Source: a virus
Length of the DNA: 20,412 nt
IMG/VR virus record: IMGVR_UViG_3300032288_000148
Span: 1-20,412 of that record
Strand: one strand, 5' to 3'
The notes beneath the pieces were generated by a model that did no database searches, was not told the DNA's origin, and worked only from the letters and a program-made list of their open reading frames with translations. A program made the translations under genes and the position numbers. This document shows positions 2 through 20,412 of this stretch, one piece after another (positions within the stretch are counted from its first letter, which is position 1; every line of letters begins with the position of its first letter).

Positions 2-733
2 CTAGGTGTATCTATGACGGGTATTCTTGACAACCCGTTGATCAACAACCCTGATGATCCTGAACTGGCTCATCGTCTGGAGGAACTAAAGAATGTTGCT
101 ATTAACACAAACGCTGAATTTGCTAACTCTATTGGTATCAATGTCAGCGCTGCTATTACTTGCGTTAAGCCAGAAGGAACTGTTTCCCAGCTCACCGGTA
201 CGGCTTCTGGTATTCACCCTCAGCATAGCCAGTTTTTCATCCGCCGTGTTCGATCTGATAATAAAGACCCTATTACTGCGTTTATGAAGACTCAGGGTAT
301 TCCTCACGAGCCTTGCGTCATGAAGCCGGACTCGACCACTGTGTTTAGTTTCCCGATGCGTGTTGAGAAAGGCGCTGTGTTGCGTGATGACATTGACGCT
401 CTCACCCATTTGCGTTTGTGGTTGGCCTTTCAGCGTCACTGGTGTGAGCATAAGCCTTCTGTGACCATCAGTGTCAAAGAGCACGAATGGCCAGCCGTTG
501 GGGCTTGGACATGGGAGCACTTCGATGAAATCACTGGTGTGTCATATCTTCCCTACGATGGTGGTACTTACAAGCAGGCTCCTTACGAGGAGATCGGTGA
601 GTACGAATACCATATGTACAGTCAGTCTATGCCGACAGACATTGATTGGGAATCTTTTATCGAGATAACCGACAACGTTGAAGGTGCTCAACAGCTTGCC
701 TGTACCGCCGGGGCGTGTGAAATTGCTTTTTAA
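2..733 (+). CDS. nrdJ: Adenosylcobalamin-dependent (class II) ribonucleotide reductase, 3' part
   Basis: The enzyme reduces ribonucleotides to deoxyribonucleotides using a coenzyme B12 radical, supplying dNTPs for phage DNA synthesis. The reading frame is open to the left edge, so the N-terminal and central parts lie outside the window. The visible part begins LGVSMTGILDNP, a conserved class II segment, and continues with PEGTVSQLTGTASGIHPQHS and IRRVRSDNKDP, which are typical of the monomeric RTPR type. The C-terminus, CTAGACEIAF, has two cysteines five residues apart. This matches the spacing of the C-terminal redox pair that re-reduces the active site in the Lactobacillus leichmannii enzyme. 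The gene is on the strand opposite the virion block, as expected for an early or middle metabolic gene. Its TAA stop is part of the ribosome binding site of the next ORF. The class assignment is firm; the choice between tri- and diphosphate substrate is less so. Confidence 0.93.
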   Translation, partial: LGVSMTGILDNPLINNPDDPELAHRLEELKNVAINTNAEFANSIGINVSAAITCVKPEGTVSQLTGTASGIHPQHSQFFIRRVRSDNKDPITAFMKTQGIPHEPCVMKPDSTTVFSFPMRVEKGAVLRDDIDALTHLRLWLAFQRHWCEHKPSVTISVKEHEWPAVGAWTWEHFDEITGVSYLPYDGGTYKQAPYEEIGEYEYHMYSQSMPTDIDWESFIEITDNVEGAQQLACTAGACEIAF

Positions 734-9819: not shown

Positions 9820-11748
9820 TTACGCTATCGCCAAGAAAATGAATGTTCCACCATTGGCGTTGATTGCCGCTGGTGCTGTGCTACTGATCTCGAAACCAGC
9901 AGAGTAGGTGTCGATATAATCGGTGTTGGTGACTTCAGCGGCTGTGCTGTTCAAAAGCAGATACGGATCGTTACCTGACACAATGCCACGGGCAGAGTCC
10001 CACACATACCAATCGCCTGTGCTGTCGGTGCGCTTGATGAGGACAAACCTTGCACCGCCTGTGAACCCGCAATCAATTTGTTTGGTCGTACCAGAGCCTG
10101 TGTATGAGCCGACCTTGCTAACCCCTGCACAAGTGGCAAAAAGATAGGCAACATACTTAGAGCCTGTTTCGTTGGTTCTAGTATCGTCACCTAAAGAAAA
10201 CACAGTGGCTGTTGGTGTTGTGCTATTCCATAAATAAGGGTTGTTACTTCCCTGACCAGCGGTAGTGTTTAACGCCATCCCTTTTGATGCACCTATTGCT
10301 TCAGAATAAACAGCCCAGTTTGACGGATTAACAGTTCTGTTTTTTACAATAATTAGTTGCGGTACAACACTTAAATTATGTGATTGAGTTGTTCCTGCTG
10401 TGGAGTTCCCTGTGTAGCAGACCACATCCATGAAGGAAGGGGCACGCCTGAAACATTCAACAATTTGCGTGTATCCATTTAAAGTACCACCAGCCACAAG
10501 AGTTGTTTGTCCAGCCCCGTTAATATCGGTGCTATTTGCTTCTGCGGCAGTAGATGCAGATGTAATTTGTGGATTCCCAGAAGCAGTCGTTCTTGTAATC
10601 CCACGCAATCTATCAAACCATTCAAATCCATTAGTAGTATCTCTGAAATCAAGCATACACAAATCTGTTGTGATTCCGGGATTGATCGTTTGTGCAGAAG
10701 ATGACGAATTAAACGACAGTGGACTAAACACACTCGTCCCACTCGTAGGCGTTTTCATCGGGCCACGACGAATGGCGATGTAGATAACATTGTCGCTAGG
10801 GTTTGAAAAACTATTGCTAATGATAAACCCAGTTGGCGTAATATTTATCCAGTTTGTTTGTGTATCTTCTATGTTTGAAAGGTTAGCTCTAAGTCGTTGC
10901 TGTGAGCCGCCGACTGCCCATCCACGCATATTGTCAAACATCGTCCAGTTGGAGGCCACATTGGTCGGCCTAGCCAAAATCCATTGAGGCTCGTATCCAA
11001 GATTAACAGTTGTATCACCGCCACCAGAATCAAGCGTTACGCCACCACACGAAATCACATTGTCTGTGCCAGCCAAACCAAAGCCACCAGCATTGTGGGC
11101 AAATATGTAGGCGACATAAGTGCCACCAGATGCGTTTACGCCAGCGTTTGTTCCCACGCTAAAAACAGTGCTCGTTGGCGCAGTACTATTCCAAACATCA
11201 GTCAATAAAGTTTGAGCAGTAGTAAGGTTGACTTGAATGGCATATGCCGCTGAAGTTAAACCCCTATGATAAACTTGCCAGTTTCCAGTTGTGTCTGTTC
11301 GTTTAACAATGATGCAACCAGGAGTAGAACCAAGGTTGTGAGCAATCGTGCGGTTTGCGCCATTCCCCGTGTAAGTCACCACATCAAAGAACTTGGGTTG
11401 TTTGCGGAATGTCCATGTGGCAATGCTATCTGTTGTTGAAAATCCAACAGATTCTGTAAATCCATTAGATAGTGTTGCGGTAATGACATCGGCGTTTACT
11501 GATTGTGCGGCAGTGCTGTTTGAAATAAGACCATTGCGTATTCCTCTTGCCGTGTCTTGTAGCCAGTTGTCATCAAGGCCAGTAACATTTCTGCTTTTAA
11601 GCCAAACCAAACCACCCTTTCCAGAAAGATCAATTCCGTTAATGATGTTTTGGTTTTGATTGCCTGTGCCTTTGTAAATGTATGTGCTAAAAACATCCTC
11701 GACAAAGGTGGCATCAGAGGAAACTTGCGAAGTGTTAGAACTGAACAT
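9820..11748 (-). CDS. Receptor-binding-type tail protein of six related modules (DUF7483-like)
   Basis: A 642-residue beta-rich protein that appears to contain six modules of about 100 residues (roughly 16-117, 121-218, 225-329, 335-436, 440-538 and 542-642). Modules 2 and 5 show the pattern best: FDVVTYTGNG / MDVVCYTGNS, then HNLGSTPGCIIVKR / HNLSVVPQLIIVKN, then NW.VY, then WNSTAPTSTVFSVG / WNSTTPTATVFSLG, and finally YVAYIFA / YVAYLFA. The last module (ARFVLIKRTDSTGDWYVWDS, ending GGTFIFLAIA) is a very common C-terminus of aquatic phage tail proteins, recalled as the DUF7483 type. The N-terminus (MFSSNTSQVSSDATFVEDVF) is intact, so the gene is complete. Its RBS, GGGAGG, lies inside the end of the HNH gene. 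A chaperone gene follows. Host recognition is inferred from this context. Confidence 0.75.
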   Translation of the reverse strand: MFSSNTSQVSSDATFVEDVFSTYIYKGTGNQNQNIINGIDLSGKGGLVWLKSRNVTGLDDNWLQDTARGIRNGLISNSTAAQSVNADVITATLSNGFTESVGFSTTDSIATWTFRKQPKFFDVVTYTGNGANRTIAHNLGSTPGCIIVKRTDTTGNWQVYHRGLTSAAYAIQVNLTTAQTLLTDVWNSTAPTSTVFSVGTNAGVNASGGTYVAYIFAHNAGGFGLAGTDNVISCGGVTLDSGGGDTTVNLGYEPQWILARPTNVASNWTMFDNMRGWAVGGSQQRLRANLSNIEDTQTNWINITPTGFIISNSFSNPSDNVIYIAIRRGPMKTPTSGTSVFSPLSFNSSSSAQTINPGITTDLCMLDFRDTTNGFEWFDRLRGITRTTASGNPQITSASTAAEANSTDINGAGQTTLVAGGTLNGYTQIVECFRRAPSFMDVVCYTGNSTAGTTQSHNLSVVPQLIIVKNRTVNPSNWAVYSEAIGASKGMALNTTAGQGSNNPYLWNSTTPTATVFSLGDDTRTNETGSKYVAYLFATCAGVSKVGSYTGSGTTKQIDCGFTGGARFVLIKRTDSTGDWYVWDSARGIVSGNDPYLLLNSTAAEVTNTDYIDTYSAGFEISSTAPAAINANGGTFIFLAIA

Positions 11749-12376
11749 TAGAGAACCTCCCTGTCGGAGTCGTTAATGCACGCTCTACAGTCCATTTTTG
11801 TTGAGTCAATCTTGTCATTACAGTCCCACAATTCAATGAAAGTTCATCACAAAAATCACGCAATGATTTAGTCACACCATTAAATGTGACTTTGATTGTA
11901 TTGCGCTTATTTCTTGCCTGTTCAGTAATTGATGCCCATCTGCAATTCTCAGGAGTGTAGTCAGCATTGCAATCAATCCGATCAATTGTCATGCCTTCTG
12001 GTTTATCGCCCATATCAGCATAAAAATTCTCAAAGATTGACCATCTTTCGCAAACCTTGATACCACGCTCGCCATATAAGTAGTAATCAGAAGATTTTGG
12101 GTTCTGGCATCTTTTCTTCATGGCAACCCAACATTGATAAATTGGTGTTTTGCTCAATCCATGTTTGCGATGTTCATTACCAACCTTTTCCTGTCGATAG
12201 CAACCACAAGAGTTTGTGTTGCCATACTTGAACCGTCCAGGTTCATAGCAGACCTCTTTGCCGCAATCACATAAAAGATTCCATAAAACACGACCATGCT
12301 TGTCACGCACTTCAGCCTGACCAATTACAGTCAATCGACCAAAGCGTTTTCCTGACAGATCAATAATCTTTTTCAT
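11735..12376 (-). CDS. Free-standing HNH-type homing endonuclease
   Basis: The protein has 213 residues from the ATG at 12376. The frame is open further upstream to 12418 with only a TTG, but the family normally begins here (MKKIIDLSGKRFGRLTVIG). Two cysteine pairs, CDCG (36-39) and SCGC (56-59), form a zinc-binding N-terminal unit. The nuclease core follows: YGERGIKVCERWSIFENFYA, DMG..PEG, and IDRIDCNADYTPENCRWASI with Gln153 and Asn156. The C-terminus (SLRDFCDEL, RLTQQKWTVERALTTP) looks like a helix-turn-helix DNA-binding repeat. Such genes spread by cutting phage genomes that lack them. It lies between two complete fibre genes, starts 2 bases after one and overlaps the next by 14 bases. 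No good RBS precedes the ATG. I place it in the phage HNH group by pattern only. Confidence 0.85.
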   Translation of the reverse strand: MKKIIDLSGKRFGRLTVIGQAEVRDKHGRVLWNLLCDCGKEVCYEPGRFKYGNTNSCGCYRQEKVGNEHRKHGLSKTPIYQCWVAMKKRCQNPKSSDYYLYGERGIKVCERWSIFENFYADMGDKPEGMTIDRIDCNADYTPENCRWASITEQARNKRNTIKVTFNGVTKSLRDFCDELSLNCGTVMTRLTQQKWTVERALTTPTGRFSNVQF

Positions 12377-12378
12377 GT

Positions 12379-14127
12379 TTACAGCGTGTAATTTTGTCCA
12401 CCTGTTGAACCAACCCAATTGCTGTTGTTGTCAGCGGTAAACACATACTTGTCAGCCTTGCTTGCTGTGCTAGTAATGGTCGGCGCAGTAGACCCAGGCC
12501 ACTTCACCGAAGCTGGCCAAGTCACCGTCCTAGACCCTGTTCCATCTTGCTTCAAAATCATGATGAAGCTGCGACCAGCAGTAGCGGTCGGGAAGGTAAA
12601 AGTACAGTTGCCTGTCAGCGTAAGAATCTGAACAGAACCATTGGCAAGATCAATTGTGTAAGAAGTTCCTGTGTTGGCAGTGGCGACCTCTTCCGTGTAT
12701 CCATTGGTAAATGTACCTGCCTCAATGGTCTTATTGGTCAGCGTCTGAGTGTCGGTTGTACCTACAACAGTACCAGTTGGGGCCGTTTTTGTAGCCCACG
12801 TATCGAGATCAGCATCCCAAGCTTGTACATTTGTACCAATTGCCAATCCTAGGTTTGTACGAGCCGTAGAAGCACTCGCCACGTCAGATAAGTTATTGGC
12901 AGCAGTTAAGAAACCTCCAGCCGTCAACGTTGCTTGTGACCAAGCACTACCTGTCCATACCCACAAAGTGTTGCTAGTGCTGTTCCAATAGATCGCACCC
13001 GTCAACAACGCATTACCATCGTTGTCCAACGTAGGAGCAGAAGCTTTAGCGCCTAAATAACGGTCATCAAAGCTGTCATACGAGGCCGCAGCAGCTGAAG
13101 CACTAGCAGCCGCATTAGAAGCGCTTGTAGAGGCACTAGAGGCGCTATTAGCGGCATTGGTGGCGCTGGTGGCCGCAGCAGACGCTGAAGTAGCTGCTGA
13201 GGTTGCAGATCCTAAAATACTGTCAACGTAGGCTTTACGAGTCAGATCATCATCCGTGGTGGGCGTAGCAGTGCTGGTGACTTTGTTAGCCCCCATCGTG
13301 ATATTACCCGTCATCGTGCCGCCAGCCAAGGCCAACTTAGCATCGCCCACTGAATCTACATATGCTTTGGTGGATGCATCAGTGCCAGCAGTAGGTGTAC
13401 CTAAGCCAGTGATCTTGTTGCTGCCCATCGCAAGAGCACCCGTCATAGAGTCACCAGCTTTACTTACCTTAGTGGCAATCGAGTTGGTCAAGGTAGCAGC
13501 AATATTAGCATCGTCATTCAATGCATCAGCAATCTCACCCAAAGTATCCAGAGTAGCTGGAGCAGTGCCGACTAGGTTACTAATCGCTGTGTCCACATAA
13601 CTCTTAGGCGCAGCATCACCAGAGTTGGTGGGCGTAGGAAGACCAGTAATCGTACCCGCTGTACCAGAGTTCATGTCCAACGTGCCGTTGATAGTCACGT
13701 TGTTGAAAGAAGATGTACCGCTAGAAGCTGTGACGTTACCCGTCAAGTTTCCTGTGACGTTACCTGTCACGTTACCTGTGACGTTACCGGTTACATTACC
13801 AGTCACGTTACCTGTCAGATCGCCGCTGAAACCTGTCGTGGCTGTTACCGTGGTTCCACGCACCGTAGAAGCCGTTGTAGCACCAACAGGTGTGTTATTG
13901 ATTGTTCCACCAGTCTGAGCAACACCAGCGACAGTACCACCAGTGATCGCTACGTTGCTGGATTCTTGGTTTCCCAAAGTACCGACAACAGTAACAACAG
14001 TGTTGGAAGCATTTTTAGTGAAAAGCTTCTTGTCAGTGACGTTAACAGCAAGCTCGCCCTGCTGAAGATCACCAGAGGCCGGTACAGCAGACGCTGTAGA
14101 ACTGTTTTTTGTGATGATTGTAGCCAT
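12379..14127 (-). CDS. Tail fibre protein with short repeats and YVD motifs
   Basis: A 582-residue fibrous protein. Residues 1-50 (MATIITKNSSTASAVPASGD, then GELAVNVTDKKLFTKN) form the usual N-terminal unit of such fibres. Residues 104-133 are seven TGNV/TGNL repeats. Three copies of the 'TPT...(D/K)...K-x-YVD' fibre repeat end at 179, 258 and 302. An Ala/Ser coiled coil spans about 307-349 (SATSAATSASAAATSATNAA). A globular tip then runs from about 350, with IYWNSTSNTLWVWTGSAW, NNLSDVASASTARTNLGL, and a C-terminal beta domain ending NWVGSTGGQNYTL, a natural end for this type. The RBS is GGAG eight bases before the ATG. It should be a trimeric adhesin or a spacer for the receptor protein. The HNH gene follows without disturbing it. 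Confidence 0.88.
   Translation of the reverse strand: MATIITKNSSTASAVPASGDLQQGELAVNVTDKKLFTKNASNTVVTVVGTLGNQESSNVAITGGTVAGVAQTGGTINNTPVGATTASTVRGTTVTATTGFSGDLTGNVTGNVTGNVTGNVTGNVTGNLTGNVTASSGTSSFNNVTINGTLDMNSGTAGTITGLPTPTNSGDAAPKSYVDTAISNLVGTAPATLDTLGEIADALNDDANIAATLTNSIATKVSKAGDSMTGALAMGSNKITGLGTPTAGTDASTKAYVDSVGDAKLALAGGTMTGNITMGANKVTSTATPTTDDDLTRKAYVDSILGSATSAATSASAAATSATNAANSASSASTSASNAAASASAAAASYDSFDDRYLGAKASAPTLDNDGNALLTGAIYWNSTSNTLWVWTGSAWSQATLTAGGFLTAANNLSDVASASTARTNLGLAIGTNVQAWDADLDTWATKTAPTGTVVGTTDTQTLTNKTIEAGTFTNGYTEEVATANTGTSYTIDLANGSVQILTLTGNCTFTFPTATAGRSFIMILKQDGTGSRTVTWPASVKWPGSTAPTITSTASKADKYVFTADNNSNWVGSTGGQNYTL
13729..13815 (-). repeat. Seven 12-bp tandem repeats encoding TGN(V/L)
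   Basis: The plus strand shows repeated units of the type GTTACCTGTCAC / GTTACCTGTGAC. They encode Thr-Gly-Asn-Val in the fibre, with one Leu unit. Third-base changes between units (GTC/GTG, ACC/ACG) show the array is not freshly duplicated throughout. Length variation here would change the fibre shaft without breaking the frame. Confidence 0.9.
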
Positions 14128-16335: not shown

Positions 16336-17241
16336 TTAAGCCGGGACAGCCAGAGCAACAGCACCGTTGTCACGCAACTCACCAACGCCGTACAGGACGT
16401 CAGCGGTGAACAGCGTACCGAGGTACTCTTGCTTGTACTGGGTCTGGGTGCGAACGCCCATCTGCTCAACCAGCACGGCGAAGTCTTTGTGAGCCAGCAA
16501 ACAGATACGATCACCATCGGTGGCCGCATCAGCGTTGGAGGTCACAAACACGGGGATGCCGTACACGTTGCCGATTTCACCATTGCGGATGGTGTTCGAG
16601 CTGCCTGCCTCACCAACGAAGGCTTGCTCGGTGAAACGAGCGATGCCCATCAGGGTGTTGCGGGTTGAGGGCGGAACGATCAGGAAACGGCCATCCATAG
16701 GCACGTCATTGTCGTCCAAACGCTGAATGGTGCGGCGGATGGCAGCATCAGTCAGAGCACCAGCAGTGCCAGTGTAGGCAGTCGTGCCATCAGCACCAGA
16801 GTAGGCTCCAGTGTAGTTGGCAGTGCCATCGCCACCGTTGGCAGCACGACCCAGTTGGATCAGAGAGGTGTCAACCTGACGAGCCAAAGCGTAACCAGCG
16901 TCATCAGTGTAGAACTGACGCAGGCTGGACAGAGCTTGGGCTTCCACGATGTCCTCGATCAGACGGGAATATTCCCAGTGCTGGTTGATCGTGACGGTCT
17001 TCTCGCCTTCAGTGGCAGCGATCAGGGTCACTTGGGTGTTAGCAGCCTTGGCCGAGGCAGAGCCACGGTTGGGGGCAGGCATGTGAACAACATCACCCTT
17101 TTTGCCTTTGAAGTTCATCTTTTTGATGAGGTTCGCAGCAACGAGGTTCTTCTTGTACGCAGCAACGATCTCATCACTCCATACTTCAGGAATGAACGTT
17201 GCAGCAGTGGTGGTGGTTACTTGATTTGTACCGAGAGGCAT
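16336..17241 (-). CDS. Major capsid protein (HK97-fold type)
   Basis: A 301-residue coat protein following the scaffold gene. The N-terminal region (MPLGTNQVTTTTAATFIPEV, WSDEIVAAYKKNLVAANLIK) and the segments GDVVHMPAPNRGSAS, HWEYSRLIEDIVEAQAL and DDAGYALARQVDTSLI are the usual pattern of coat proteins of P22/N4-like and aquatic podoviruses: a short N-arm, then the long spine helix and P-domain. The C-terminal part (FLIVPPSTRNTLMGIARFTE, AVLVEQMGVRTQTQYKQEYL) matches the same group. The RBS, AAGGAG, is the strongest in the window. Codon choice is more biased to C- and G-ending codons than in its neighbours, as expected for the most abundant protein. Tandem hairpins follow the stop. Confidence 0.92.
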   Translation of the reverse strand: MPLGTNQVTTTTAATFIPEVWSDEIVAAYKKNLVAANLIKKMNFKGKKGDVVHMPAPNRGSASAKAANTQVTLIAATEGEKTVTINQHWEYSRLIEDIVEAQALSSLRQFYTDDAGYALARQVDTSLIQLGRAANGGDGTANYTGAYSGADGTTAYTGTAGALTDAAIRRTIQRLDDNDVPMDGRFLIVPPSTRNTLMGIARFTEQAFVGEAGSSNTIRNGEIGNVYGIPVFVTSNADAATDGDRICLLAHKDFAVLVEQMGVRTQTQYKQEYLGTLFTADVLYGVGELRDNGAVALAVPA

Positions 17242-17272: not shown

Positions 17273-18052
17273 TTATTTGACCCTGCCCTCAGCATACGCA
17301 GCCATAATTTCAGGCTGGAGCGCCTCATAACGGGCGGGATCAGTCATCTTGAGCCGGATGAGGTCGGCACGACGATAGACTTTCTTAGAAGATTCACCTG
17401 TACCGCCAACATCTACTGCGGCAGCTTGTAGGTTCTTTTTCAACACTTTATCGCCAGCATCAGCGGTTTGTTGTGCCTTTGCTGAACGAATCTGTTTGAA
17501 AGTGCTCAGAAGCTCATCGGCAGAAGCAAAATCATACTGGCTATCAGCCAAGGCAAACATGTTCAACCGAATTGGAGAACCCTTAACCCATTGCTGGAAT
17601 TCAGGATCAGTAACCACCTGAGTAAAATCAGGGTGTTTAGCTGCCAATTGCTGTTGCGTCTGCATCGCCTTCATCTGCATCGCTGCTTGTTGGGCAGCCA
17701 AAACAGACGGATGATTCGACACTGCTTTTTCGATGGCCTTTTGAGGGTCTTCAAAAAAATCAATCTCTTGTTTTTCTGGTGCAGGCGTTGCTTGTTTAGC
17801 GGCAAGATTCTGTTTTAATAGCTGATCTGCAAGTCGTCGAACTTCACCAACCTCTTGTGCCTGACGACCAATAAGCTTTTCAGCTTCTTGATGCATCTGG
17901 ATGATTTCATCGACTGTTTTGCCTTCGTATTTGGAAGGAACCCTCGGTTTATCAGGTTGTGCCTCAGCCTGTTCGGTTGCTTCGGCTTGTTTCTGTTCTT
18001 CTGCGTCTATTTCGCTAGTAGAATCGTCGTTTACGCTGTCAATAAGTGCCAT
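17273..18052 (-). CDS. Capsid scaffolding protein
   Basis: A 259-residue, highly charged, helical protein lying directly before the coat gene. The N-terminus is very acidic and Gln/Glu/Ala-rich (EIDAEEQKQAEATEQAEAQP). The centre is coiled coil (VDEIIQMHQEAEKLIGRQAQ, then Gln-rich AAQQAAMQMKAMQTQQQ). The basic C-terminus (YRRADLIRLKMTDPARYEAL, ending EIMAAYAEGRVK) is a helix-turn-helix of the type that binds coat subunits in P22 and T7-like phages. It should guide procapsid assembly and then leave. An RBS (GAGGT) precedes the ATG. No protease motif is present. Confidence 0.88.
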   Translation of the reverse strand: MALIDSVNDDSTSEIDAEEQKQAEATEQAEAQPDKPRVPSKYEGKTVDEIIQMHQEAEKLIGRQAQEVGEVRRLADQLLKQNLAAKQATPAPEKQEIDFFEDPQKAIEKAVSNHPSVLAAQQAAMQMKAMQTQQQLAAKHPDFTQVVTDPEFQQWVKGSPIRLNMFALADSQYDFASADELLSTFKQIRSAKAQQTADAGDKVLKKNLQAAAVDVGGTGESSKKVYRRADLIRLKMTDPARYEALQPEIMAAYAEGRVK

Positions 18053-18094: not shown

Positions 18095-18127
18095 AAAAAT
18101 GACTCGCTGGTTTTTCAGTTACGAGTC
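18095..18127 (-). terminator. Candidate terminator after the zinc-ribbon gene
   Basis: On the minus strand GACTCG pairs with CGAGTC, and an inner CTG/CAG pairing is offset by a three-base bulge that is the TAA stop codon of the zinc-ribbon gene. ATTTTT follows immediately. The stem is imperfect and the T run short, so this may be a weak terminator or attenuator upstream of the scaffold and coat genes. Confidence 0.5.
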
Positions 18128-18355
18128 GGCCTTTTTGCGCTCTTGGGCCATCTTTTCTGCCCTTTTGCGGTTCCAAGCGTGATAAGCGCCGGGGAAAGCA
18201 CCGCTAAAAGGCTCCAAATATGTCCTAGGAGCAGAGACTGTTCGCTTCGCCGGATCTTCACACACCTTACAGGTGATCTGGAAGACTTCGGTATCCACTA
18301 AAGCCTCGTTTTCGTGTCCTTGTTCACATAGGAAATCAAACATCCGCCGTGGCAT
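18119..18355 (-). CDS. FmdB-like zinc-ribbon protein (78 aa)
   Basis: I start it at the ATG at 18355 (MPRRMFDFLCEQGHENEALV), not at the upstream in-frame ATG. The RBS GAGGAG lies ten bases before it, and the 'MP-x-x-x-[FY]-x-x-C-x-x-G-H' opening is typical. Cys10, His14, Cys29 and Cys32 make a C-x3-H...C-x2-C zinc site as in FmdB-type regulators. The C-terminal half (RTYLEPFSGAFPGAYHAWNR, then a Lys/Glu-rich tail) differs from bacterial FmdB. Small zinc ribbons of this sort occur between portal and scaffold in many aquatic podoviruses. Whether they bind DNA, RNA or a virion partner is unknown to me. The start overlaps the end of the upstream gene by 20 bases. Confidence 0.8.
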   Translation of the reverse strand: MPRRMFDFLCEQGHENEALVDTEVFQITCKVCEDPAKRTVSAPRTYLEPFSGAFPGAYHAWNRKRAEKMAQERKKADS

Positions 18356-18581
18356 TTGTAAGCTCCTCGTAAACTTTAGCACACATTTCACGCCTTTGAA
18401 GGATCAGGCCAAGGATGTCTAACTGTCCTTTCCGGAAATACAACTCATTTGGCTCCGAGACAGTTGACAGATCGTTGATCTTTTCTCTCAAAATCGTAAA
18501 ATCTTCAATTAGATGAGCCCAACCTTTTGTGGACATCATCGAGAATGTGTTTTCGTAATATTCCTGTAGTTCTTTATCCAT
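18336..18581 (-). CDS. Small helical protein (81 aa), unknown
   Basis: The protein appears fully helical: MDKELQEYYENTFSMMSTKG, WAHLIEDFTILREKINDLST, ELYFRKGQLDILGLILQRRE, MCAKVYEELTNA. The 'W-x-x-L-I-x-D' and 'F-R-K-G-x-L-D-x-L-x-x-[IL]' elements are familiar from small head-module genes of aquatic phages, function not known. It is the first gene after the promoter at 18611-18639, with AGGT ahead of the ATG. Its last codons overlap the start of the zinc-ribbon gene, which suggests they are produced together. Confidence 0.75.
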   Translation of the reverse strand: MDKELQEYYENTFSMMSTKGWAHLIEDFTILREKINDLSTVSEPNELYFRKGQLDILGLILQRREMCAKVYEELTNATADV

Positions 18582-18610
18582 GCGGAGAACCTATTTAACA
18601 AAGATAGTGG

Positions 18611-18639
18611 ATACTAACATAAAAAATGTTAGTTGTCAA
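18611..18639 (-). promoter_or_regulatory. Sigma70-type promoter for the head genes
   Basis: On the minus strand the perfect -35 box TTGACA (18639-18634) is separated by 17 bases from TAGTAT (18616-18611), a 4/6 match to the -10 box. A TGT directly before it provides the extended -10 element. It lies nine bases after the portal stop codon and about 30 bases before the next gene. Transcription would start near 18604. This points to use of host RNA polymerase for at least part of the late block. Confidence 0.7.
18613..18633 (-). promoter_or_regulatory. Perfect inverted repeat inside the promoter (possible operator)
   Basis: ACTAACAT and ATGTTAGT form an eight-base inverted repeat separated by five T. 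It fills the spacer and overlaps the -10 box. A dimeric regulator bound here would block the promoter. Alternatively it is just an AT-rich hairpin of no importance. Confidence 0.5.
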
Positions 18640-18647
18640 CACTTTTG

Positions 18648-20412
18648 TTATTGTTTTCTTAGCATTTGTAAGCCAGCAATACGCTCATTAGAGGCTATAT
18701 CGGCTGCTTTGAGGTTAATTTCACGCTCCTTAAGCATACGATCAGCCAGTTTCAGGCGCTTGTCAAAGTCATCTGAACGATCAATGTTCGTGGCAGCAGC
18801 TTGAATAATATCAACTTGGTGCTTCTCAGGCAGTAATTGAGCCTCGATAGTGGCCTTTTGAGCCTCTGCCTGCTCTTTCTGTGCTTTGGCTTGTATTTCC
18901 ATAGCCTGTGCCTGCTTGATCTGCATATCAAGTTGGATAGCCTGTTGCTGGGCCGCTTGTTGCTCAGGGTTCGGTTGACTCATCTGCTCCAACATAGCAA
19001 TCATTTCACCACGGTTGGAGAGACCAGAGTTTTGCAAGATACCTTTGAGGATAACAGGCAACACCGGAGTATCAGGGCCTAGCGTTTGCAACAAAGCAAT
19101 CAATTGCTGTTGTTCGTACTCACGAGCCATGATGCCCAACGTAGCTGTCGGGATAAACTTCATGTCCGTTGAAGGATAACGCTCAGGGTCAAACTGCATA
19201 TACCGGAACGCAGCTTTCTCGATGAACGGAATCAGGAAGTCTTCTTGGAAGTTACTCAAAGTACGTTTGTACTTCTTGATGATCCCAGCCAATACCATCG
19301 ACATCCCTGAAGCACCAGCATCACGAGGAACGTTGGTGGGCATACCAGAGGCATCAACCGTACCAGTGGCTTGCAACAACAAACGCTCAAAGTTTTGGGC
19401 GGTTTGGATGTTAGTCCCATCTGTCTGACCAAACTTAAACGGTTGCAGAATCTCTGACGGGTTTCCGTTGGTCAAAATAGCTTTACCGGGCTTAATCTCA
19501 AACTTAGCGCCACGAGGCAGTCGGGTAGCGTCCATCGCCACCATAGGGGCCGTTGTAAGGGCCACAGAGTCCATATGAGCACGCAATTGACCATCAATAG
19601 CCTTTTGCATATTGTAAGCCTTCTCAACGGTTCCACGGCCCCAGAAACGTCCGGGAACGGTATCGTCTTGATAAGCCACCACAGGACGATCTTTCATCAT
19701 GTACGGATTGGCTTCAGCTTTCAGCAATTGACTGTCATTGGCAATAACGACAATGGCTTCAACAAGGTTACAGTATTCGTCACCCTCAGAGCCTTCAGGG
19801 AATAGCTCTTCATATTCAGCCTCATCGCCTTCCAAATACTCACGAGGCACAAGACCATAGTAAGTCGTGAGTTTTACTTTGTTATCTTGAAAGTTCTGCG
19901 GGTCTTGAGTTGGCTCAAGCTCTGTGTCATCGTAAGTAGACGAAATATCAACTTTGCGATACACACCACGCTCAATGTTCTCAACAACCTTGTGGATAGA
20001 CACATACTTCTCAATAGCGCAACCCATCGCATCTTCAATGCTGTCTGCATTAGGATCAATCAGGAAGTTGCGGGGGTTCACAGGCTTGATCTGAACAGAG
20101 ATACGATCCTTCTCCTGCACCCCAATAGCAGCAGGGCCTACAACGCCGGGAATCGGCATAGTGGCAGGGACATACTCTTTCTTAGGATTGACAACAATCT
20201 CACCAATGCCTGTACCATAGATTTCAGCCATCAACTCGATCTGATCGATAGCTTTCTTGATTTTGTCTTTGTCAAAGTCTTCTTTGAGTTGAGCTTTGAT
20301 CTGTTCAATATCAAGTGGATTACCGTTCAAGTCAAGGATATCATCCTTGATGTCGAAGTAGTCCCCTTGACCAAAGATTGCTTCCATGATCTCAGCGTGG
20401 CGGGTCTCCACC
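18648..20412 (-). CDS. Portal protein, P22-like, 3' part
   Basis: The frame is open to the right edge, so the N-terminus lies outside; 587 or so residues are visible. The portal is the twelve-subunit ring through which DNA is packaged and ejected. Diagnostic segments are IELMAEIYGTGIGEIVVNPK, VNPRNFLIDPNADSIEDAMG, RFWGRGTVEKAYNMQKAIDG, and GTVDASGMPTNVPRDAGASG followed by FLIPFIEKAAFRYMQF. These correspond to the stem, clip and crown order of P22/T7-type portals. The last 110 residues are a Gln/Ala/Lys-rich coiled coil (PEQQAAQQQAIQLDMQIKQA onward), like the helical barrel of P22 gp1. The gene opens the visible head module. Terminase genes are expected further right, outside the window. The clear family pattern makes this call secure; the exact subfamily is less so. 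Confidence 0.92.
   Translation of the reverse strand, partial: VETRHAEIMEAIFGQGDYFDIKDDILDLNGNPLDIEQIKAQLKEDFDKDKIKKAIDQIELMAEIYGTGIGEIVVNPKKEYVPATMPIPGVVGPAAIGVQEKDRISVQIKPVNPRNFLIDPNADSIEDAMGCAIEKYVSIHKVVENIERGVYRKVDISSTYDDTELEPTQDPQNFQDNKVKLTTYYGLVPREYLEGDEAEYEELFPEGSEGDEYCNLVEAIVVIANDSQLLKAEANPYMMKDRPVVAYQDDTVPGRFWGRGTVEKAYNMQKAIDGQLRAHMDSVALTTAPMVAMDATRLPRGAKFEIKPGKAILTNGNPSEILQPFKFGQTDGTNIQTAQNFERLLLQATGTVDASGMPTNVPRDAGASGMSMVLAGIIKKYKRTLSNFQEDFLIPFIEKAAFRYMQFDPERYPSTDMKFIPTATLGIMAREYEQQQLIALLQTLGPDTPVLPVILKGILQNSGLSNRGEMIAMLEQMSQPNPEQQAAQQQAIQLDMQIKQAQAMEIQAKAQKEQAEAQKATIEAQLLPEKHQVDIIQAAATNIDRSDDFDKRLKLADRMLKEREINLKAADIASNERIAGLQMLRKQ

Follow-up and report, generated by a model that had tools for sequence, protein, structure and literature searches.

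A conserved host-type promoter and a covarying RNA hairpin ahead of the head genes in a family of uncultured podoviruses

Genes and promoter between portal and head

The window, by which we mean the whole stretch of DNA analysed here, is the 20,412-nt IMG/VR record IMGVR_UViG_3300032288_000148, in which the promoter and late genes lie on the minus strand. The features at the locus are as follows.

18648–20411, minus strand: portal protein, whose 5' part extends beyond the window edge (PHROG 1216, E = 7.4e-42)
18611–18639, minus strand: P_head, a sigma70-type extended -10 promoter (TTGACA-17-TAGTAT, TGT before the -10 box)
18639–18634, minus strand: -35 box TTGACA, as read in the sequence
18633–18617, minus strand: P_head spacer of 17 nt ending in TGT, as read in the sequence
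18616–18611, minus strand: -10 box TAGTAT, as read in the sequence
18602–18606, minus strand: predicted transcription start of P_head, near 18604, placed from the -10 position
18568–18591, minus strand: late-gene leader hairpin, containing the AUG of g81 (pairing and covariance model)
18336–18581, minus strand: g81, 81 aa, the gene with which the head transcription unit begins (open reading frame and homologues)
18119–18391, minus strand: 90-aa open reading frame overlapping g81 by 56 nt; its two Cys pairs resemble, by eye, a zinc ribbon
17273–18052, minus strand: putative scaffold gene (named by position; in PHROG 13678, a family with no assigned function)
16336–17241, minus strand: major capsid protein (PHROG 267, E = 1.9e-53)

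The product of g81 is modelled by AlphaFold as an all-helical protein (mean pLDDT 94.1) with no structural match in the PDB at E <= 0.001 and no match to an RNA-binding fold, so that g81 does not reveal a binder of the hairpin. A PHROG scan of 61 g81 members returned sporadic matches only, two g81 proteins searched against 50,697 phage records found no relative, and the 90-aa frame matched nothing in Pfam or PHROG. The other late transcription unit would begin with a gene that we call putative terS, a name based on the large terminase encoded next to it (PHROG 2, E = 2e-49) and on the AT-hook-like GRPPK at the start of its product, which in a sister contig has no family match at E <= 0.01. Elsewhere in the window an HNH endonuclease gene lies between two tail-region genes (11735–12418, minus strand), and the C-terminal part of a ribonucleotide reductase (2–733, plus strand) converges on the late genes at their lysozyme end.

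No open reading frame longer than 754 aa is listed in two sister contigs (30.1 and 35.4 kb; possibly incomplete), so a phage RNA polymerase of T7 or N4 size is not visible there. Neither a polymerase nor a regulator was recognised among the proteins scanned, and a search of 20 contigs with PF00940 for a phage RNA polymerase returned nothing, its controls being silent too. Since the sister contigs hold no such large frame and no polymerase was recognised, late transcription is probably carried out by the host RNA polymerase. A scan of genome contigs for the host yielded six MAG contigs of mixed label, with 37–68% coat identity and no evidence of a host.

According to the initial annotation, a TTGACA, a 17-base spacer, an extended TGT and a TAGTAT follow directly on the portal gene, and all of these can be read at 18639–18611 on the minus strand, with 8 nt between the portal stop (the reading frame ends at 18648) and the -35 box. 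The hexamers match the sigma70 consensus at 10 of 12 positions. In these hexamers, the 17-nt spacing and the TG, P_head resembles the extended -10 promoters of bacteria (TG-N-TATAAT); unlike typical promoters of that class it lies inside a phage late operon, in a family whose sister contigs show no RNA polymerase of their own. Promoter-like strings of the quality of P_head are found at 21 sites in the window as against 23.0 in shuffles, and it is therefore conservation, not the string itself, that gives P_head its significance.

Conservation was assessed on loci from IMG/VR scanned with the portal (80 loci kept out of 591 confirmed), g81 (47 loci) and the coat protein (80 loci kept out of 600 confirmed); a g81 homologue is present in 191 of the 205 loci so gathered. 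DNA reaching 160 nt upstream was available for 187 g81 loci, of which 149 are unique over the last 100 nt. Scored against TTGACA/TATAAT, 108 of these 149 regions contain a match of at least 10/12 with at least 5/6 in the -35 box, while mononucleotide shuffles give 9.15 (maximum 13). The spacer is exactly 17 nt in 104 of the 108 and the TG is present in 92, and a stricter form (17 nt plus TG, at least 9/12) occurs in 94 of the 149 regions against 1.4 expected. Boxes and spacing are constant across clades while the spacer sequences diverge widely, TTGACA in some relatives includes the TGA stop codon of the portal gene, and TTGACA-17-TG-N-TAGTAT is kept in three contigs with 90% portal identity, so that the boxes have not been lost from close relatives. 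The idea of a host promoter within the late operon thus gains a family-wide basis. That the boxes might be a chance string, with late transcription beginning elsewhere, agrees with the window-wide frequency of such strings, which is that of shuffles, but is very improbable in view of a fixed 17-nt spacer at the same place in 104 of the 149 regions around a spacer sequence that varies.

Judged from these comparisons, P_head is a conserved host-type promoter between the portal and head genes; that it fires, and that it does so from near 18604, we infer. Because a promoter of this type is kept between portal and scaffold/coat across a large family, a separate head transcription unit seems likely.

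A palindrome restricted to one lineage

Two symmetric elements, to neither of which a strand is assigned, overlap the promoter.

18613–18633: perfect 8-bp dyad ACTAACAT-T5-ATGTTAGT, its right arm overlapping the -10 box, lineage-specific
18596–18650: longer dyad, imperfect, spanning the promoter with two arms of 25 nt that are 72% complementary (RNA fold z-score -2.6)

The perfect inverted repeat reported earlier is present, and it has the two-fold symmetry and the overlap with a promoter that a repressor operator would have. Perfect dyads of at least 8 bp with a loop of 3–9 nt number four in the window, against 0–6 in 12 simulations, and the exact pattern ACTAACAT-5-ATGTTAGT occurs once in the window record, none being expected from 100 shuffles. 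Besides the window record five near relatives have the palindrome, one contig in identical form and four with one outer base changed and 7-bp arms. It is missing from the three contigs of 90% portal identity, in which TAGTAT and the TG are retained.

Other clades have P_head dyads of different sequence. Arms of at least 7 are found in 14 of 42 promoter clusters, against 8.3 in chimeras (p 0.01) and 4.5 in column shuffles, and in-promoter arms of at least 6 in 9 of the 42 against 2.9–4.4 expected, a modest excess that depends on the null model and comes from clusters that are not independent. We rejected the view of the promoter dyads as one conserved structure, their geometry and sequence differing between clades. 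In some relatives an antisense extended -10 promoter, also with a 17-nt spacer, overlaps P_head face-to-face and points back into the portal. Such pairs are seen in 18 of the 149 regions, against 2.2 expected with the sense promoter held fixed, their -10 boxes lying 16–19 or 5–8 bp apart, and they include two clades.

Portal/g81 gap of L158, L141, L199, L150, L162, L159, L180 and L167: face-to-face promoter clade, 8 regions
Portal/g81 gap of L133, L138, L139, L142, L130 and L153: face-to-face promoter clade, 6 regions

These antisense promoters account for several of the dyads outside the window; at the window's own P_head none reaches the threshold used.

The initial annotation took the palindrome for an operator, on which a repressor dimer of phage or host would recognise ACTAACAT-5-ATGTTAGT and block RNA polymerase at P_head. 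A perfect dyad overlapping the -10 box, with a chance of about 0.002 of arising inside P_head given the spacer composition (a post-hoc figure), and the mild family-wide excess of dyads speak for such a repressor. Its absence from relatives with 90% portal identity speaks against it, as do the face-to-face promoters that explain several of the other clades' dyads, the lack of a second copy at up to 3 mismatches in either sister contig, and the failure of PHROG and Pfam to recognise a repressor or other HTH protein among the early proteins scanned, several small ones of which match nothing at all. Both follow-ups that the annotation had proposed, a search for further copies of the element and one for a phage-encoded HTH repressor, thus came back empty within that scope; the palindrome as a repeated operator was rejected on its single copy in the record and the sister contigs. 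With neither conservation in 90%-identity relatives nor a second copy in the sister contigs, an operator role is unsupported and we regard it as unlikely; most likely the palindrome is a lineage-specific sequence with no conserved role. Of the separate regulation of scaffold and coat proposed alongside it, the conserved promoter of their own stands and the operator, lost in the 90%-identity relatives, is not supported.

A hairpin over the first start codons

Downstream of the predicted transcription start, over the beginning of g81, the RNA can fold into a short hairpin, whose parts are listed in the 5' to 3' direction of the transcript.

18591–18587, minus strand: first arm, GGUUC
18586–18584, minus strand: UCC
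18583–18580, minus strand: loop, GCAU
18579–18577, minus strand: GGA
18576–18573, minus strand: bulge, UAAA
18572–18568, minus strand: second arm, GAACU

Reading the sequences downstream of P_head side by side gives a general form, arm1-UCC-loop-GGA-NAAA-arm2, lying over the g81 start. The UCC...GGA anchor, chosen regardless of pairing, is found in 75 of 134 unique g81 starts, and in 40 unique arm pairs the flanking segments pair at 4.33 of 5 positions, misses included, whereas permuting the arms leaves 2.62 +/- 0.17 pairs of 5 (maximum 3.18 in 2000). Across 223 loci (1.87 Mb) a strict descriptor of the hairpin finds 50 unique contexts and six altered control descriptors find 0, 8, 3, 1, 3 and 1; the control with 8 coincides in part with the true pattern where the bulge reads AAAA.

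Covariance models point the same way. A MAFFT alignment, in which the variable loops were misaligned, was given up in favour of 10 equal-length sequences, from which the first model was built. At E <= 1 this model finds 58 sites in 80 sources, in which all five stem pairs change on both sides and 95.3% of cells pair; its covariation is 0.581 against 0.127 +/- 0.020 after shuffling (reached by none of 500 shuffles) and at most 0.130 in slid registers. A second model, run on 85 sources of which 84 had not been searched before, gives 44 sites at E <= 0.1 and a covariation of 0.401 against 0.135 shuffled (again 0 of 500). Because the alignments behind these covariation values were made to fit the model, they are biased towards pairing; the arm-permutation test is free of this bias. 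In the window the only match is at 18565–18594 on the minus strand (E = 1.3e-4). The UCC and GGA are invariant or nearly so, and their pairing with one another is accordingly a deduction from the fold, since bases that hardly vary cannot covary. Taken alone the window hairpin is moderately stable (-5.6 kcal/mol); in a longer stretch of the window an alternative fold beats it. At the Rfam gathering threshold the window has no match, and three copies of the element have sub-threshold, unrelated matches only. On this comparative evidence the hairpin is a covarying RNA element.

The two models together give 101 sites (58 + 44, with the window taken only once and some loci being overlapping pieces of one contig), of which 64 are at g81, 31 at putative terS and 6 elsewhere, or 51, 26 and 5 by distinct 70-nt sequence. 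Among 21 records searched, 16 have one to three matches (E <= 0.5), and both sister contigs have exactly two, at terS and at g81. The start codon does not keep one position relative to the fold: in one register the AUG overlaps the loop and GGA, in another it follows 8–13 nt after the GGA, which then is the Shine-Dalgarno sequence, and because the AUG sits in different registers coding constraint cannot explain the fold. There is also a circularly permuted form, GG-AUAA-arm-loop-arm'-CC, with the AUG in the loop, a pattern that arises in 43 of 1240 shuffles. The 134 unique g81 starts divide into 72 with the ordinary hairpin, 25 with the permuted one (mostly from one clade) and 37 with neither, these last including the antisense-promoter clade around L158, and at least five records (L044, L061, L073, L078, L082) combine the permuted form or close kin at g81 with the ordinary form at terS.

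Three of the six other sites occupy the same place after P_head, with an HNH-like gene inserted between hairpin and g81. Two of the others (L088, minus strand, and L177) lie at no gene start and seem to be chance matches.

L023:2073–2501, L025:6837 and L178:597: HNH-like gene between hairpin and g81, labelled HNH by eye
L057:1054–1084: hairpin copy before a 57-aa DUF5710 gene, the sole other plausible target gene seen

The HNH-like gene keeps the hairpin and opens with the same MDKEL codons as g81, which looks like the capture of a leader by a mobile gene; this was judged from the translation in L023 and from the DNA in L025 and L178.

At P_head the first arm follows the -10 box at a distance of 5–28 nt, which places the hairpin close to where the P_head transcript would begin. 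L135, L143 and L144 have a terminator-like stem with a T-run between the -10 box and the g81 start. Upstream of terS the sole good promoter match in a sister contig precedes the hairpin by about 230 nt, and in L047, L088, L134, L181 and L212 a TTGACA-17-TG promoter lies about 120–155 nt upstream of it; a further example is given below.

L206:14332–14360: TTGACA-17-TG promoter before terS

The terS promoter and hairpin are separated by a long AT-rich leader with short palindromes and often a TTTGTCTA motif.

Translational control of two late operons as a working model

A cis-regulatory RNA should overlap the site on which it acts and have a fold backed by compensatory changes, and the hairpin has both: it overlaps the ribosome-binding site and start codon, in two registers and a permuted form, and its stem covaries. 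A fold over the first start codons of both operons, with an invariant core and a freely covarying stem, fits a translational operator. In the model that we favour, P_head, recognised by host sigma70, would start a head-morphogenesis transcript carrying g81, the 90-aa gene, the putative scaffold and the coat. This mRNA would begin near 18604 and bear the hairpin where its first gene has its ribosome-binding site and AUG, and the same fold stands at the start of putative terS, which would be the first gene of the other late unit. A promoter so near consensus should work as soon as the phage enters, which means that head production must be held back at some later step. The hairpin, once formed or once held by a factor reading the UCC/GGA-NAAA core, may block initiation on both late operons. 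Repression by the hairpin and the binding of a protein to it are both steps that we infer. We put the probability that P_head is a functional sigma70 promoter and the hairpin a translational operator of both late operons at roughly 0.55. Control of the head genes comes more plausibly from this conserved RNA hairpin downstream, which the initial annotation does not mention, than from the palindrome.

Other functions for the hairpin have to be weighed against this. It could stabilise the 5' end of the late mRNAs or serve there as an RNase processing site, as the first arm, only 5–12 nt after the -10 box in several relatives and thus close to the 5' end, would allow; but the fold lies over the initiation region in several registers, its invariant core and bulge exceed the needs of a generic stabilising stem, and the good promoter matches for terS are found 120–230 nt upstream, all of which makes such a function rather unlikely, if the best placed of the other functions. 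Somewhat less likely still is a switch at the ribosome-binding site that folds and unfolds with temperature or with ribosomes and has no dedicated binder. The pairing of the Shine-Dalgarno GGA or of the AUG region is what such a switch would use, and the conserved NAAA bulge and invariant UCC/GGA, both kept as core and bulge in the permuted form, suggest specific recognition instead. An antitermination signal of the put or nut kind would explain why each of the two late transcription units has one copy close to its start, but would not need to overlap or abut the first start codon as the hairpin does, and we think it improbable.

More broadly, and with a little under even odds, the translational operator may mark a very widespread family of uncultured podoviruses, with no RNA polymerase of their own in view, in which host-consensus late promoters are combined with a putative RNA-binding factor. 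Acting on a compact helix-bulge-helix made of UCC/GGA and NAAA, which would serve in two permuted forms and at least three registers, this factor would gate packaging and head genes together as one RNA regulon of two operons. If so, a phage transcribed by the RNA polymerase of its host avoids premature heads by gating translation, and the late operons of a phage family whose first head gene has no relative in the 50,697 cultured phage records are marked by a new covarying RNA element for which there is a model and a clear set of target genes; the hairpin could then be used as bait for a new RNA-binding protein. We regard the hairpin as the more important feature of the locus than the palindrome and found no earlier report of it, in a literature search of open-licence papers that is weak evidence of absence from print.

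The family has distant relatives in Saffermanviridae (Pf-WMP3) and HMO-2011-type podoviruses, with about 35% identity in the coat or 22–28% in the portal and a similar order of packaging and head genes; the RNA model has no match in the whole Pf-WMP3 record or in 9-kb stretches of HMO-2011, HTVC115P and CRP-345. Hairpin promoters of the N4 type go with a very large virion RNA polymerase gene, and were set aside as a model for our element on the absence of a frame above 754 aa from the two sister contigs, possibly incomplete as these are. In MS2, an RNA phage with one operator site per genome, the coat protein operator is a hairpin with an unpaired A feature that spans the start codon; the late-gene hairpin is like it in its unpaired A feature and its start codon, and different in topology.

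By function, the nearest kinds of control are two from phage T4 (PMC3014915). At T4 gene 43 a phage mRNA has its translation controlled by an RNA hairpin together with the sequence of the ribosome-binding site, the hairpin lying about 40 nt upstream of the start and serving one gene (PMC3014915). The likeness, by function alone, is in the proposed control of translation through a hairpin and ribosome-binding site; unlike the gene 43 hairpin, the late-gene hairpin covers the AUG region and is common to two operons. In T4 a single protein, RegA, also regulates several mRNAs at their start codons, through sites that the same review describes as A+U rich and without apparent structure (PMC3014915). 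What our model would share with RegA, so described, is one regulator for several start codons, while the late-gene element, unlike RegA sites, is a covarying hairpin.
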